A DNA stretch of 64,000 bases from Pseudomonas putida (GTDB taxonomy: Bacteria > Pseudomonadota > Gammaproteobacteria > Pseudomonadales > Pseudomonadaceae), in NCBI RefSeq assembly GCF_002025705.1, contig NZ_CP018846.1, positions 5,261,501 through 5,325,500 on the forward strand, read 5' to 3'. Made by a program: the position numbers and the translations under genes. Each line of letters opens with the position of its first letter. The first letter of the stretch is position 1. The notes under the pieces are model-generated. The model was given only the letters and a program-made list of their open reading frames with translations, had not been told where the DNA came from and searched no databases. This document shows positions 18,256 through 52,925 of this stretch, piece by piece.

Positions 18256-18325
18256 CCCGAAAACGGCTACAGCTAATCTTGGCGCAGCTTAAGCCACAAC
18301 CGTGGCAATAATGAGGATAAGAAAA

Positions 18326-21300
18326 TTGGCGACGACCACCCTTGGGGTCAAACTTGACGACCCGACCCGTGAGCGACTCAAAGCAGCTGCGCAGTCCATC
18401 GACCGCACGCCGCACTGGTTGATCAAGCAAGCGATCTTCAATTACCTGGAGAAGCTCGAGGGTGGCGCAACCCTGACCGAACTCAACGGTCACGCCAACA
18501 ACCTGGCCGATGACGCTGGTGAAGTGCAGCCAGACCACGCCCACCAATGCTTCCTCGAATTTGCCGAAAGCATCCTGCCGCAGTCGGTACTGCGTTCCGC
18601 AATCACCGCCGCCTACCGCCGCCCCGAGCAGGAAGTGGTGCCGATGCTGCTGGAGCAGGCGCGCCTGAGCGCCCCGCTGGCCGAAGCCACCAACAAGCTG
18701 GCCGCCGGCATCGCGGAGAAACTGCGCAATCAGAAGAGTGCTGGCGGCCGTGCCGGCATCGTCCAGGGCCTGCTGCAGGAATTTTCCCTGTCGTCCCAGG
18801 AAGGCGTTGCCCTGATGTGCCTGGCCGAAGCCCTGCTGCGCATCCCTGACAAAGGCACCCGCGACGCCTTGATCCGCGACAAGATCAGCAACGGCAACTG
18901 GCAGCCGCACCTGGGCAACAGCCCGTCGCTGTTCGTCAACGCCGCCACCTGGGGCCTGCTGCTGACCGGCAAGCTGGTATCCACCCATAACGAAGCCGGC
19001 CTCACCTCCTCGCTGACCCGCATCATCGGCAAGAGCGGCGAACCGATGATCCGCAAGGGCGTCGACATGGCCATGCGCCTGATGGGTGAGCAGTTCGTGA
19101 CCGGTGAGACCATCGCCGAAGCCCTGGCCAACGCCAGCCGCTTCGAAGCCAAGGGCTTCCGCTACTCCTACGACATGCTTGGCGAAGCCGCACTGACCGA
19201 GCATGACGCACAGAAATACCTGGCGTCCTACGAGCAGGCAATTCACTCGATCGGCAAAGCGTCCCATGGCCGCGGCATCTATGAAGGCCCGGGCATCTCG
19301 ATCAAGCTGTCGGCCCTGCACCCACGCTACAGCCGCGCCCAGTACGAGCGCGTGATGGAAGAGCTGTACCCACGCCTGCTGTCGCTGACCCTGCTGGCCA
19401 AGCAGTACGACATCGGCCTGAACATCGACGCCGAGGAGGCCGACCGCCTGGAGCTGTCCCTCGACCTGCTCGAGCGCCTGTGCTTCGAGCCGGCCCTGGC
19501 TGGCTGGAACGGTATCGGCTTCGTTATCCAGGCCTACCAGAAACGCTGCCCGTACGTGATCGACTACGTCATCGACCTGGCCAAGCGCAGCCGCCACCGC
19601 CTGATGATCCGCCTGGTAAAAGGCGCCTACTGGGACAGCGAGATCAAGCGCGCCCAGGTCGAAGGCCTGGAAGGCTACCCGGTCTACACCCGCAAGGTGT
19701 ACACCGACGTATCCTACGTAGCCTGTGCCCGCAAGCTGCTGGCCGTGCCGGAGGCGATCTACCCGCAGTTCGCCACCCACAACGCCCACACGCTGTCGGC
19801 CATCTACCACATCGCCGGCCAGAACTACTACCCGGGCCAGTACGAGTTCCAGTGCCTGCACGGCATGGGCGAACCGCTGTACGAACAGGTTGTAGGCAAG
19901 ATCGCCGACGGCAAACTGAACCGTCCATGCCGTGTGTACGCCCCTGTCGGCACCCACGAAACCCTGCTGGCCTACCTGGTCCGCCGCCTGCTGGAAAACG
20001 GCGCCAACACCTCGTTCGTCAACCGTATCGCCGACCACTCGATCTCCATCCAGGAACTGGTCGCCGACCCGGTCACCAGCATCGAACGCATGGGCACCCA
20101 GGAAGGCAGCATCGGCCTGCCGCACCCACGTATCCCGCTGCCGCGCGAGCTCTATGGCAGCGACCGCGCCAACTCGGCCGGCATCGACATGGCCAACGAA
20201 CACCGCCTGGCGTCGCTGTCCTGCGCCATGCTGGCCACTGCCAACAACGACTGGAAAGCCACCCCACTGCTGGCCTGCGCCGCCAGCGAAGTTGCTGCCG
20301 TACCGGTACTCAACCCGGCGGACCACCGCGACGTGGTCGGCCACGTGCAGGAAGCCACCGTTGCCGACGTCGACAATGCCATCCAGTGTGCACTGAACGC
20401 CGCGCCGATCTGGCAGGCCACCCCACCGGCCGAGCGTGCTGCAATCCTCGAACGCACCGCCGACCTGATGGAAGCCGAAATCCAGCCGCTGATGGGCCTG
20501 CTCATCCGCGAAGCCGGTAAGACCTTCGCCAACGCCATCGCCGAAGTGCGCGAAGCCGTGGACTTCCTGCGCTACTACGCGGTGCAGGCACGCAATGACT
20601 TCAGCAACGACGCCCACCGCCCGCTGGGCCCGGTGGTGTGCATCAGCCCGTGGAACTTCCCGCTTGCGATCTTCACCGGCCAGGTAGCCGCAGCCCTGGC
20701 TGCCGGTAACCCGGTGCTGGCCAAGCCTGCCGAGCAGACCCCGCTGATCGCTGCCCAGGCCGTGCGCCTGCTGCTGGAAGCCGGTATTCCGGAAGGCGTG
20801 CTGCAACTGCTGCCAGGTCGCGGCGAAACTGTCGGCGCCGGCCTGGTCGGTGATGAGCGCGTCAAAGGCGTGATGTTCACCGGCTCCACCGAAGTCGCCC
20901 GCCTGCTGCAGCGCAACGTCGCTGGCCGCCTGGACAACCAGGGCCGGCCGATCCCGCTGATCGCCGAAACCGGCGGCCAGAACGCAATGATCGTCGACTC
21001 CTCGGCGCTGACCGAGCAGGTGGTGATCGACGTGGTGTCCTCGGCCTTCGACAGTGCCGGCCAGCGTTGCTCGGCCCTGCGTGTACTGTGCCTGCAGGAA
21101 GACTCCGCCGACCGCGTGATCGAAATGCTCAAGGGCGCCATGGCCGAGAGCCGCCTGGGTTGCCCGGACCGCCTGGCCGTGGACATTGGCCCGGTGATCG
21201 ACGCCGAAGCCAAGGCTGGTATCGAGAAGCACATCCAGGGCATGCGCGAGAAAGGCCGCGCGGTCTACCAAGTCGCAATCGCCGATGCAGCCGAGATCAA

Positions 21301-22279
21301 GCGTGGCACCTTCGTGATGCCAACCCTGATCGAGCTGGACAGCTTCGACGAGCTGAAGCGTGAGATTTTCGGCCCGGTGCTGCACGTGGTGCGCTACAAC
21401 CGTCGCAACCTCGACCAGCTGATCGAGCAGATCAACGCCTCCGGCTACGGCCTGACGCTCGGCGTGCACACCCGCATCGACGAGACCATCGCCAAGGTGG
21501 TGGAAACCGCCAACGCCGGCAACATGTACGTCAACCGCAACATCGTTGGCGCCGTGGTGGGCGTGCAGCCGTTCGGTGGTGAAGGCCTGTCCGGCACCGG
21601 TCCGAAAGCCGGCGGCCCGCTGTACCTGTACCGCCTGCTGTCGACCCGCCCGGCCGACGCCATTGGCCGTCACTTCCAGCAGCAGGATGGTGAAGGCCAG
21701 CCGGACCGTGCCCTGCACGACCAACTGATCAAGCCGCTGCACGCCCTGAAGGCTTGGGCCGAGAGCAACCAGCAGGCCGAACTGGCCGCACTGTGCAACC
21801 AGTTCGCCGGCCAATCGCAGAGCGGCATCGCCCGCCTGCTGCCCGGCCCGACCGGCGAGCGCAACACCTACACCATCCTGCCGCGCGAGCACGTGCTGTG
21901 CCTGGCAGACAACGAGGCCGACCTGCTGGCGCAGTTCGCAGCCGTGCTGGCCGTCGGTAGCTCGGCGGTGTGGGCTGACGGCGAGCCAGGCAAATCCCTG
22001 CGCGGCCGCCTGCCGAAGGAACTGCAGGCCAAGGTCAAGCTGGTGGCAGACTGGAACAAGGATGAAGTGGCGTTCGACGCTGTCATCCACCATGGCGACT
22101 CGGATCAGCTGCGTGGCGTGTGCCAGCAGGTGGCCAAGCGTGCCGGGGCGATTGTCGGTGTACACGGGCTGTCCAGCGGCGACCACCAGATTGCGCTGGA
22201 GCGCTTGGTGATCGAGCGCGCGGTGAGTGTGAACACTGCGGCGGCGGGCGGTAACGCCAGCCTGATGACCATTGGCTAA
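18326..22279 (+). CDS. putA: Trifunctional proline dehydrogenase / P5C dehydrogenase / put repressor
   Basis: Flavoenzyme oxidising proline to glutamate in two steps (proline to P5C with FAD, then P5C to glutamate with NAD+) and repressing put genes when not membrane-bound. I take the TTG at 18326 as start: it gives MATTTLGVKLDDPTRERLKA, matching the E. coli N-terminus, behind GAGGATAA; earlier GTG 18302 and ATG 18311 lack this. The product has 1317 residues. Ribbon-helix-helix domain: 1-47. Proline dehydrogenase core: YQKRCPYVIDYV, VKGAYWDSEIKRAQ and RRLLENGANTSF. Aldehyde dehydrogenase part: Glu in IAETGGQNAMIV and Cys in SAGQRCSALRVL. An intrinsic terminator follows. Confidence 0.96.
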   Translation: MATTTLGVKLDDPTRERLKAAAQSIDRTPHWLIKQAIFNYLEKLEGGATLTELNGHANNLADDAGEVQPDHAHQCFLEFAESILPQSVLRSAITAAYRRPEQEVVPMLLEQARLSAPLAEATNKLAAGIAEKLRNQKSAGGRAGIVQGLLQEFSLSSQEGVALMCLAEALLRIPDKGTRDALIRDKISNGNWQPHLGNSPSLFVNAATWGLLLTGKLVSTHNEAGLTSSLTRIIGKSGEPMIRKGVDMAMRLMGEQFVTGETIAEALANASRFEAKGFRYSYDMLGEAALTEHDAQKYLASYEQAIHSIGKASHGRGIYEGPGISIKLSALHPRYSRAQYERVMEELYPRLLSLTLLAKQYDIGLNIDAEEADRLELSLDLLERLCFEPALAGWNGIGFVIQAYQKRCPYVIDYVIDLAKRSRHRLMIRLVKGAYWDSEIKRAQVEGLEGYPVYTRKVYTDVSYVACARKLLAVPEAIYPQFATHNAHTLSAIYHIAGQNYYPGQYEFQCLHGMGEPLYEQVVGKIADGKLNRPCRVYAPVGTHETLLAYLVRRLLENGANTSFVNRIADHSISIQELVADPVTSIERMGTQEGSIGLPHPRIPLPRELYGSDRANSAGIDMANEHRLASLSCAMLATANNDWKATPLLACAASEVAAVPVLNPADHRDVVGHVQEATVADVDNAIQCALNAAPIWQATPPAERAAILERTADLMEAEIQPLMGLLIREAGKTFANAIAEVREAVDFLRYYAVQARNDFSNDAHRPLGPVVCISPWNFPLAIFTGQVAAALAAGNPVLAKPAEQTPLIAAQAVRLLLEAGIPEGVLQLLPGRGETVGAGLVGDERVKGVMFTGSTEVARLLQRNVAGRLDNQGRPIPLIAETGGQNAMIVDSSALTEQVVIDVVSSAFDSAGQRCSALRVLCLQEDSADRVIEMLKGAMAESRLGCPDRLAVDIGPVIDAEAKAGIEKHIQGMREKGRAVYQVAIADAAEIKRGTFVMPTLIELDSFDELKREIFGPVLHVVRYNRRNLDQLIEQINASGYGLTLGVHTRIDETIAKVVETANAGNMYVNRNIVGAVVGVQPFGGEGLSGTGPKAGGPLYLYRLLSTRPADAIGRHFQQQDGEGQPDRALHDQLIKPLHALKAWAESNQQAELAALCNQFAGQSQSGIARLLPGPTGERNTYTILPREHVLCLADNEADLLAQFAAVLAVGSSAVWADGEPGKSLRGRLPKELQAKVKLVADWNKDEVAFDAVIHHGDSDQLRGVCQQVAKRAGAIVGVHGLSSGDHQIALERLVIERAVSVNTAAAGGNASLMTIG

Positions 22280-22303
22280 CGCCAGGGGCTGCTGATGAAA
22301 AAG

Positions 22304-22325
22304 GAGAGCTTCGGCTCTCTTTTTT
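22304..22325 (+). terminator. Intrinsic terminator of putA
   Basis: GAGAGC-TTCG-GCTCTC hairpin with a stable UUCG tetraloop followed by six T residues, 24 bases after the putA stop. Confidence 0.92.
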
Positions 22326-22350
22326 ATGGGCGCATGTCTTGAGATGGTTG

Positions 22351-22584
22351 GCGCCTGATAGATCGAGCGCCTCCCCCGCGCTGCGCATCGCGGATAAATC
22401 CGCTCCTACATTTGTTGCAACGCGGCCATGCCTGTCAGGTCATGGTTGTCAGCCTTGTTTGTAGGGCTCAATTCATGCGCCAGGGCGGGCAACCATGGCG
22501 CAACAGGTTCGGCACGTTGCAACAGATGTAGGAGCGGATTTATCCGCGATGCGCCGCGCGGGCGGCGCTGGATTTCATAGGCGC
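22351..22584. repeat. 234-bp near-palindromic REP-containing element, copy A
   Basis: Two inverted arms, each starting at GCGCCT and containing CGCGGATAAATCCGCTCC, then TTGTTGCAACG or its variant, then an inner CATGGTTG segment, around an asymmetric centre of about 30 bases. A second copy with the same centre, in the same orientation, is at 52687-52925. The element lies between putA and the acyl-CoA dehydrogenase gene. No coding potential is seen. The size and long terminal inverted repeats fit a BIME or MITE-like unit. The remainder of the 433-bp gap (22585-22712) shows no other feature beyond the leader of the next gene. Confidence 0.8.
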
Positions 22585-22712
22585 TGAAACAACCAAGACA
22601 GGCACCTGTATGCCCCCACCCTTTCTATAGCCATATCACCCAAACCTATTAACCTCCCTCCACCCTGCCCCACCACCTAGACTCGGCTGACGCCCGCTCA
22701 AGGACCGCCCCC

Positions 22713-24515
22713 ATGCCCGAGACCCTGCTCAGCCCCCGCAACCTCGCCTTCGAACTTTACGAAGTCCTCGACGCCGAGGCCCTGACCCAGCGCCCGCGCT
22801 TCGCCGAACACAGCCGCGAAACCTTCGACGCGGCGCTGTCCACCGCGCGTACCATCGCCGAGAAGTTCTTCGCTCCGCACAACCGCAAAGCCGACGAGAA
22901 CGAGCCGCGCTACGTAGACGGCCGTGCCGAGCTGATCCCTGAAGTGAAACCCGCCGTCGACGCGTTCCTCGAAGCCGGCTTCCTCAACGCCAACCGCGAT
23001 TTCGAAGTTGGTGGCATGCAGTTGCCCAGCCTGGTCTCGCAGGCCTGCTTCGCCCACTTTCAGGCCGCCAATGCCGGCACCACGGCCTACCCGTTCCTGA
23101 CCATGGGCGCGGCCAACCTGATCGAGAGCTTCGGCACCGACGAGCAGAAGCGCCTTTACCTGCAGCCGATGATCGACGGCCGCTACTTCGGCACCATGGC
23201 GCTGACCGAACCACACGCAGGCTCTTCGCTGGCCGATATCCGTGCCCGCGCCGAACCCGCGGGCGACGGCACATATCGCCTCAAGGGCAACAAGATCTTC
23301 ATCTCTGGCGGCGACCACGAGCTGTCGGAAAACATCGTGCACATGGTGCTGGCCAAGCTGCCGGACGCACCGCCTGGTGTTAAGGGTATTTCGCTGTTCA
23401 TCGTGCCTAAGTATCTGGTCAACGACGACGGCAGCCGTGGCCCACGCAACGATGTGCTGCTGGCCGGACTGTTCCACAAGATGGGCTGGCGCGGTACCAC
23501 CTCCACCGCGCTGAACTTTGGCGACAACGGCCAGTGCGTCGGCTATCTGGTCGGCCAGCCGCATCAGGGCCTGGCGTGCATGTTCCAGATGATGAACGAG
23601 GCGCGCATCGGTGTTGGCATGGGTGCAGTGATGCTCGGTTACGCCGGTTACCTGTATTCGCTGGAATACGCTCGCCAAAGGCCACAAGGCCGCCTGGCGG
23701 ACAACAAGGACCCGCAAAGCCCGGCCGTGCCGATCATCGAGCACACCGATGTAAAACGCATGCTGCTGGCGCAGAAGGCCTATGTGGAAGGCGCCTTCGA
23801 CCTGGGTTTGTACGCTGCGCGACTGTTCGACGACACCCATACTGCCAGCGACGAGAACGTACGCAAACAGGCCCAGGAGCTGCTCGACCTGCTGACCCCG
23901 ATCGTCAAGTCCTGGCCCTCGGCCTTCTGCCTCAAGGCCAACGAACTGGCAATCCAGATTCTCGGCGGCCACGGCTACACCCGCGAGTACCCAGTGGAGC
24001 AGTACTACCGCGACAACCGCCTGAACCCTATCCACGAAGGCACCGAGGGCATCCAGTCACTTGACTTGCTGGGCCGCAAGCTGGCGCAGAACAACGGTGC
24101 AGGCCTCAAGCAACTGATCCGGCTGATCGCCGCCACCGCCGAACGCGCCAGCCATCATCCGGGCCTGGACACCCTGCGCCAACCACTGGAGCAACTGGTC
24201 AACCGCCTGCAGTCGGTAACGCTTGCCCTGCTCGGCGACCTGGCCCAGGGCAAGATCGCCGGTGCCTTGGCCAACTCTGCCCTGTATCTCAAGGCCTTCG
24301 GCCACTGCGTAATCGGCTGGCGCTGGCTGGAACAAGCCATCCACGCCGAACTAGGCTTGCTCAAGGGCAACCCCGTCGACCGCGATTTCTACCTCGGCAA
24401 ACTGCAGGCCGCACGTTATTTCCTGACCTGGGAAATTCCTGGCTGCCATAATGAGCTGGCATTGCTCGAGGCGCGCGACGACACGTGCCTTGCCATGCAA
24501 GACGGGTGGTTCTAG
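22713..24515 (+). CDS. Acyl-CoA dehydrogenase, long (FadE5/DmdC-type)
   Basis: 600-residue FAD enzyme of the acyl-CoA dehydrogenase superfamily, long subgroup with an extra C-terminal domain. Seen: N-terminal helical domain; flavin-binding middle strand GTMALTEPHAGSSLADIRAR with FISGGDHELSEN; C-terminal catalytic segment LNPIHEGTEGIQSLDLLGRK with the expected catalytic Glu; and IQILGGHGYTREYPVEQYYR. It would catalyse alpha,beta-dehydrogenation of an acyl-CoA in the cytosol. DmdC (3-methylmercaptopropionyl-CoA dehydrogenase) belongs to the same subgroup, so chain length and substrate remain open. The stop is 31 bp before the TldD-like gene, suggesting co-transcription with a surprising partner. 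Confidence 0.9.
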   Translation: MPETLLSPRNLAFELYEVLDAEALTQRPRFAEHSRETFDAALSTARTIAEKFFAPHNRKADENEPRYVDGRAELIPEVKPAVDAFLEAGFLNANRDFEVGGMQLPSLVSQACFAHFQAANAGTTAYPFLTMGAANLIESFGTDEQKRLYLQPMIDGRYFGTMALTEPHAGSSLADIRARAEPAGDGTYRLKGNKIFISGGDHELSENIVHMVLAKLPDAPPGVKGISLFIVPKYLVNDDGSRGPRNDVLLAGLFHKMGWRGTTSTALNFGDNGQCVGYLVGQPHQGLACMFQMMNEARIGVGMGAVMLGYAGYLYSLEYARQRPQGRLADNKDPQSPAVPIIEHTDVKRMLLAQKAYVEGAFDLGLYAARLFDDTHTASDENVRKQAQELLDLLTPIVKSWPSAFCLKANELAIQILGGHGYTREYPVEQYYRDNRLNPIHEGTEGIQSLDLLGRKLAQNNGAGLKQLIRLIAATAERASHHPGLDTLRQPLEQLVNRLQSVTLALLGDLAQGKIAGALANSALYLKAFGHCVIGWRWLEQAIHAELGLLKGNPVDRDFYLGKLQAARYFLTWEIPGCHNELALLEARDDTCLAMQDGWF

Positions 24516-52686: not shown

Positions 52687-52925
52687 TTCAGCGCCCTTGA
52701 GACCGAGCGCCGCCCGCGCGGCGCATCGCGGATAAATCCGCTCCCACATTTGTTGCAACGTGGCCATGCCTGTCAGGCCATGGTTGTCAGCCGGTTTGCA
52801 AGCCTCAAGTCATGCGCCAGGGCTGGCAACCATGGCGTAACAGGTTCGGCACGTTGCAACAAATGTGGGAGCGGATTTATCCGCGATGCGCCGCGCGGGC
52901 GGCGCTCGATCTCACAGGCGCTGAA
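52687..52925. repeat. 239-bp near-palindromic REP-containing element, copy B
   Basis: Starts with TTCAGCGCC (52687) and ends with its inverse GGCGCTGAA (52925). The two arms match over about 75 bp with only a few differences, then less perfectly to a CCATGGTTG/CAACCATGG inner stem, around an asymmetric centre with CTCAAGTCATGCGCCAG. The same centre is found in copy A at 22351-22584. It fills most of the 493-bp gap between the EamA gene and the antiporter gene; the rest of the gap (52926-53095) shows only the presumed promoter and leader of the antiporter. Confidence 0.85.

Follow-up and report, generated by a model that had tools for sequence, protein, structure and literature searches.

The element analysed here has several described counterparts. 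In Pseudomonas fluorescens SBW25, according to the sections of PMC3116915 available to us, the REPIN and RAYT system combines two inverted REPs, an ssDNA hairpin, dispersed copies and a cognate RAYT in the same genome, and these features recur in our element. TIRtrons, published in 2013 (PMC3733652, available in part), are structures of P. putida and P. fluorescens in which a degenerated GTAG-1 unit stands next to a stem-loop unrelated to it, and the same excerpt speaks of “hundreds of these bizarre structures” in the two species; for P. putida and P. entomophila it also describes tail-tail REP dimers, in some of which the spacer ends are complementary, and for other species REP dimers set within longer palindromes. 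The orthoswitch, as set out in the accessible text of PMC3686654, is a change of REP class at orthologous RAYTs with the link between REP and RAYT kept.

We analysed a 64,000-nucleotide stretch of a P. putida genome (the window). A first-pass annotation had placed two near-palindromic copies in it, at 22,351-22,584 (copy A) and 52,687-52,925 (copy B, + strand), with long inverted arms, REP cores, an inner CATGGTTG stem and an asymmetric centre; both copies are real and lie at these positions, every one of these parts is present in each, and the arms pair without gaps over 48 nt at 96% complementarity in copy A and over 76 nt at 96% in copy B. As single strands, copies A and B fold at -97.1 kcal/mol (z -13.4) and -133.4 kcal/mol (z -21.9), values that 0 of 200 shuffles equalled in either case; like REPINs, both window copies form a single-strand hairpin beyond chance. 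The reading we prefer, to which we give a probability of about 0.7, is that copy A is one of about 100 non-autonomous, RAYT-mobilised, stem-extended REPINs, later reworked in place.

The sharply conserved unit of copy A covers about 22,363-22,572 and is bordered by degenerate outer-arm sequence that weakens with distance. To the left is putA (proline dehydrogenase / aldehyde dehydrogenase; 18,302-22,279, + strand), the neighbour that marks the orthologous site, with a terminator-like hairpin (22,302-22,326) at its 3′ side directly before the left outer arm (22,328-22,362; read from the sequence and the outer-arm consensus). There follow the left constant stem (22,363-22,386; consensus TCGAGCGCCGCCCGCGCGGCGC, mutated here, from sequence and family consensus), the left REP (22,387-22,409; GTAGGAGCGGATTTATCCGCGAT on the - strand, its GTAG tag toward the centre, read from the sequence) and the left inner arm (22,410-22,458; GTTGCAACG...CATGGTTGTCAGC, from sequence, consensus and fold). 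Beyond the asymmetric centre (22,459-22,486; sequence and consensus), the right half contains an inner arm (22,487-22,527; ...CAACCATGGC...CGGCACGTTGCAACA, from sequence, pattern search and consensus), a REP (22,528-22,550; GTAGGAGCGGATTTATCCGCGAT on the + strand, read from the sequence), a constant stem (22,551-22,572; GCGCCGCGCGGGCGGCGC then TGGA, from sequence and flank consensus) and a degenerate outer arm (22,573-22,608; sequence and flank score), which has letters in common with the orthologous site of genome G302; the next gene encodes an acyl-CoA dehydrogenase (22,713-24,515, + strand). In copy B the REPs are at 52,725-52,747 (-) and 52,865-52,887 (+), as judged from sequence, arms and fold. 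The element thus has the two inverted REPs of a REPIN, each a GT(A/G)G tag with a palindrome, and because a constant stem adjoins each REP on the outside, the whole unit folds as one nested ssDNA hairpin. Rfam at gathering scores over the window gave nothing but an SAH riboswitch aptamer (RF01057, 55,031-55,127, + strand, 65.3 bits against a cut-off of 37), away from the element, and no match to the element was found in plasmid and phage records.

The annotation had also spoken of a two-copy family, which is true inside the window only: the own genome (G000; 6,137,024 bases in one contig) gave 82 full-length and 2 partial copies. The first element search matched at least 40 places, every scored place among them; pattern searches contributed 60 more stretches, and a scan of all collected DNA gave the 84 places. 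There are 168 exact arms (REP plus outer stem) in the genome, 139 of them within the 84 places and 29 elsewhere, so the total is probably about 90-100 elements. Long copies are therefore abundant in the genome-wide search that the annotation had called for, which did not return simple REPs only; among the places listed the same REP also pairs at close range, in doublets spaced by 34-43 bp. Read inward, the consensus of the 82 copies consists of a degenerate outer arm, TCGA, a constant GC-rich stem (GCGCCGCCCGCGCGGCGC) with most positions more than 90% conserved, an inward-tagged GTAG REP, an inner arm and a short asymmetric centre, which is about 38 nt longer in 7 of the 82; read outward, the outer flanks follow a loose consensus that weakens with distance. 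The REP-to-REP distance is about 142 bp, or 181-186 bp in the longer copies, versus 71 bp for GI, and since this spacing is above ordinary REPIN length we class the element as a variant REPIN.

Among the 75 shorter cores the mean pairwise identity is 0.871 and the maximum 0.950; no two of those compared are identical, so nothing points to very recent spread. The loop variants of the left and right REPs agree in 72 of 78 copies (Fisher p 9e-14), and arms differ by 1.79 within copies versus 2.74 between copies (68 pairs; reached by 0 of 5,000 permutations). REPs are thus more alike within a doublet than between doublets, as in REPINs, which suggests copying, or homogenisation, of the doublet as a whole. 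Judged with an approximate ORF rule, the copies lie close to the 3′ ends of genes (the distance from stop to core has a median of 38.5 bp and is below 80 bp in 80 of 98 measurements), and the gene setting of the 82 copies is convergent in 30, tandem in 38, divergent in 5 and undecided in 9. Three further ideas were set aside. Maintenance of copy-specific palindromic outer flanks by compensation was weak (score 9.74 within copies versus 7.58 between, z 5.5), with the own flank the best partner in just 7 of 81 copies (one copy dropped); orientation by replichore showed a lean (18/28 versus 22/14, with the terminus assumed at 3.07 Mb) that we do not claim; and a count of 18 ORFs spanning the core, the product of a crude GC3 filter, was not used.

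Three proteins of the own genome match PF01797, and all three score as REP-associated tyrosine transposases; two of them carry other REPs. The third (L031:1426-1881, - strand) is preceded at 108 bp by a full element and followed at 8 bp by a half-element. It scores 159.8 bits for NF047646 (cut-off 80), has the HxH and Tyr motifs and aligns with E. coli TnpArep 4er8 (E 1.1e-7); compared by eye with the subclass 2.5 signature given in the accessible part of PMC6006769, WQ and YI[VI]ANP fit, and DHIH stands against DH[LF]H. As with REPINs, a RAYT in the same genome carries the same REPs, though with the minority loop variant: its REPs have a TTCA loop, and among the 139 collected arms TTTA accounts for 89 versus 46. 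Similarly, as in a TIRtron, a REP joined directly to an unrelated stem-loop flanks the tyrosine transposase gene, the published sequences being known here by description. Because this gene sits between a full copy and a half-copy, the short element looks like the RAYT unit without its gene, and this RAYT, beside the copy at genome position 2,132,088, is the likely mobiliser in trans. A classical MITE of a DDE-type insertion sequence with terminal inverted repeats would also have long inverted repeats and many dispersed copies; the repeats here contain GTAG REPs, the linked gene is a Y1-type transposase and no target duplication was found (none was readable, the junctions examined being too diverged), and we regard this already disfavoured origin as highly improbable. 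The two RAYT genes with other short REPs lie at genome positions 5,127,460-5,127,774 (L032) and 5,558,681-5,558,995 (L033); the REPs of L032 are joined to different stem-loops (TGAGGGCGAAGCCCTCA and GGGCCGCAAAGCGGCCC), so the combination of REP and stem-loop looks modular.

The association extends to related RAYTs. Among 17 other RAYT rows at 68% identity or more, which include some proteins twice, 9 have an element match of at least 80 bits within 1,500 bp, 3 have weak matches (37-38 bits) and 5 have no match above 23 bits. Half-elements are found on both sides of the gene in P. plecoglossicida (L134/L216), Pseudomonas sp. CM27 (L133) and genome G158 (L211). In L211, L131 and L133 the upstream half is matched more closely by an inverted right half than by a left half, so describing the short element as the RAYT unit minus its gene is an approximation. 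In a tree of 67 RAYTs, sampled from 40 of the 80 loci of one set plus the loci of a 50-genome relative search, an arm by loose match is present in 11 of 13 members of one supported clade (99/92) and in 3 of 54 elsewhere; the arm label requires 5 changes (4 or more when supported branches alone count), versus 12.9 when shuffled. RAYT relatives themselves are common, being present in at least 46 of the 50 chosen genomes. Some genomes speak against the link: G335 has 86 exact arms and no RAYT relative at E<=1e-15 among the matches listed, an instance of copies that outlast or lack their transposase; in G116 (146 exact arms) and G123 (18), the best RAYT locus of each is without an arm.

A query of the own class detected the family in at least 28 of 398 genomes of the genus, the own genome included (E<=1e-25, two scored candidates per genome); for the wider family this count is a minimum, since G302, G354 and G230 carry arms and were missed. 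In the own genome 135 of the 139 arms are GGATTTATCC (89) or GGATTCATCC (46). The pattern of another class accounts for 3 of the 168 arms, two of which make one whole element at 3,408,672-3,408,910, with REP GGCCTTGCGTC, another inner arm and the same outer stem. This lone element (in L355, genome 3,408,000-3,409,600) may be left over from an earlier population. All arms belong to other classes in G354 (62), G302 (23) and G123 (18), and the outer stem is kept: those of G123 are all of the GGCCTTG type, those of G354 are GAGCCTTGCTC in all but 9, and those of G302 are of the GAGC..AGCTC type in 21 cases, the other two, at copy A’s site, being GGCCTTGCGTC. The REP at the arm-bearing RAYT is of the commonest class among the elements listed in G203, G140 and G291 (in the last, 24 of 38 listed elements), and in G397 it is of the class found at the three element sites read. 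In G203, facing arm pairs with different REP types lie at C1:3,590,227-3,590,355 and 5,802,500-5,802,737.

The flanks of copy A’s site are widespread, the stretch being matched in at least 395 of the 398 genomes (own included). When this site was compared in 36 other genomes, outer arms were present in 8 (in G078 as the right-arm motif only) and absent from 28, so that the comparison of empty sites proposed at first pass does not place the copies at positions ancestral in all relatives. G230 and G302 each share one flank specifically with copy A: the left flank of G230 scores 35 (8.2±3.8 for other copies) and the right flank of G302 scores 29 (9.7±4.3), a level that 0 of 160 null scores reached in both cases, and despite the shared flank both genomes have a GGCCTTGCGTC core at this site. 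The opposite flanks are unshared (null scores as high in 32 of 160 for the right flank of G230 and in 125 of 160 for the left flank of G302), and G140, G354, G116 and G123 show no clear sharing of either flank here.

A second survey covered 12 own sites in 10 genomes, and in 50 of the 120 combinations, at 8 sites, both flanks were among the matches listed. Arms are present in 8 of these 50 site-genome pairs and there are none in 42; among 20 loci found from one flank, 10 were resolved on both sides, 1 of them with arms, and G140 has an arm at 2,031,691 with one flank only. At site 4,315,857, G397 shares the flanks (null scores as high in 10 of 160 on the left and in 0 of 160 on the right) and has a GAGCCTTGCTC core. 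At site 1,296,024, G230 shares both flanks (0 and 0 of 160) and keeps the arms only, flank sharing is weaker in G397 (3 and 15 of 160) and G116 (1 and 9 of 160), G123 has a chimeric left-right core with unshared flanks, and G354 does not clearly share either flank. G397 is also occupied at 3,896,001, with weak sharing (40 and 7 of 160). As a side observation, the 1,296,024 site of G116 (L319) contains two tandem elements with a single stem between them. Could the family be a passive repeat, that is, bidirectional terminators or mRNA stabilisers selected as hairpins and homogenised by recombination, with only an incidental link to RAYTs? The position near gene 3′ ends, the gene settings of the copies, the very stable fold and the short hairpin that replaces the element at 1,296,024 in three genomes without it would fit; the lack of any arm in most site-genome pairs, and RAYT genes that bear element arms, together with the REP class of their own genome in those genomes that were compared, make it quite unlikely that no mobiliser is involved.

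In-place exchange, for which the sites are ranked by copy-specific flank sharing with a different core, appears best supported at 4,315,857 and at copy A and is likely at 1,296,024. The same classes could instead have arrived by independent insertion at hot spots, with different-class elements repeatedly entering the same intergenic gap and no exchange in place. Such insertion would agree with the preference for gene 3′ ends, with several shared sites whose flanks are no more alike than the family consensus, and with the one-sided sharing in each genome at copy A; the copy-specific outer-arm letters shared at copy A (by G230 and G302) and at 4,315,857 (by G397), where on one side or both 0 of 160 null scores reached the same level, argue against it. 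We consider it unlikely as a general account, though live for part of the pattern.

Changes within the core were found at copy B’s site. In G158 the left flank is the same (0.912 identity over 125 nt), the centre is 0.945 identical to that of copy B after inversion and 0.728 in its present orientation, and the right REP and stem are gone; in G176 the outer arms are kept and the core is gone, and the other eight genomes read have no arm. Inversion and loss between arms, here and in G230 at 1,296,024, together with the left-right chimera in G123, are what one would expect if the RAYT, rather than host recombination, swapped or flipped hairpin cores between copies as cassettes; the same products are expected, however, if long inverted arms recombine or if template switching occurs between them, and we think catalysis by the transposase improbable, somewhat more so than hot-spot insertion.

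Under our preferred reading, a mobilised REPIN later reworked in place, the RAYT would excise and insert the element as a single strand, by analogy with TnpA-REP and IS200. The frame would then persist in place, and the core, to judge from the species compared, would be inverted, lost or exchanged for one of another REP class, most likely by recombination (gene conversion) between the shared arms. A review of 1988 reportedly proposed that REPs evolve by gene conversion. We infer mobilisation from association and rework from comparison. The first-pass suggestion of a non-autonomous unit moved by a RAYT encoded elsewhere holds in part: copies are dispersed and variably occupied, their REPs are alike within a copy and the genome’s own RAYT carries the arms, but no excision or insertion was seen. 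More tentatively, and at somewhat less than even odds, the fixed hairpin frame may act as a docking site and the REP core as an exchangeable, invertible cassette, so that after a change of RAYT specificity copies would be overwritten in place, not decayed, and a whole REP population could switch class without new insertions. With its constant-stem frame around different cores at shared sites, the element is relevant to the way in which bacterial REP repeats switch type, and presence at a site or the orientation of a centre need not date or orient an insertion.

Compared with the REPINs of SBW25, as described in the available sections of PMC3116915, the element is distinguished by its length of 210-240 bp, by the constant stem that borders each REP on its outer side and by outer arms that fade. 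It resembles TIRtrons, by the description in the accessible part of PMC3733652, in having a REP plus stem-loop as the terminal inverted repeat of a tyrosine transposase gene; relative to that account, the gene-less doublet unit, the class change with a constant stem and the apparent in-place exchange and core inversion are additional. The R6 repeat of P. fluorescens Pf0-1 (177 bp, with 34 bp inverted repeats and 50 copies) is likened by its description in the part of PMC2718517 available, not by sequence. In the orthoswitch model, as the excerpt of PMC3686654 has it, old REPs stay and decay, whereas some sites here appear to hold a new class in the old frame; GTAGGAGCGGATTTATCCGC is absent from the 22 PF classes in Table 1 of that paper, and a 14-base REP core had no match in the papers searched. 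As far as the accessible texts go, arms made of a REP and a stem-loop (PMC3733652) and REP class switching at orthologous RAYTs (PMC3686654) are already published. In-place class exchange in a conserved frame, together with core inversion, was not found in what was covered of the open papers searched; as they appear from the comparison of genomes, in-place exchange and core inversion are the two features that take this element beyond ordinary REPINs.
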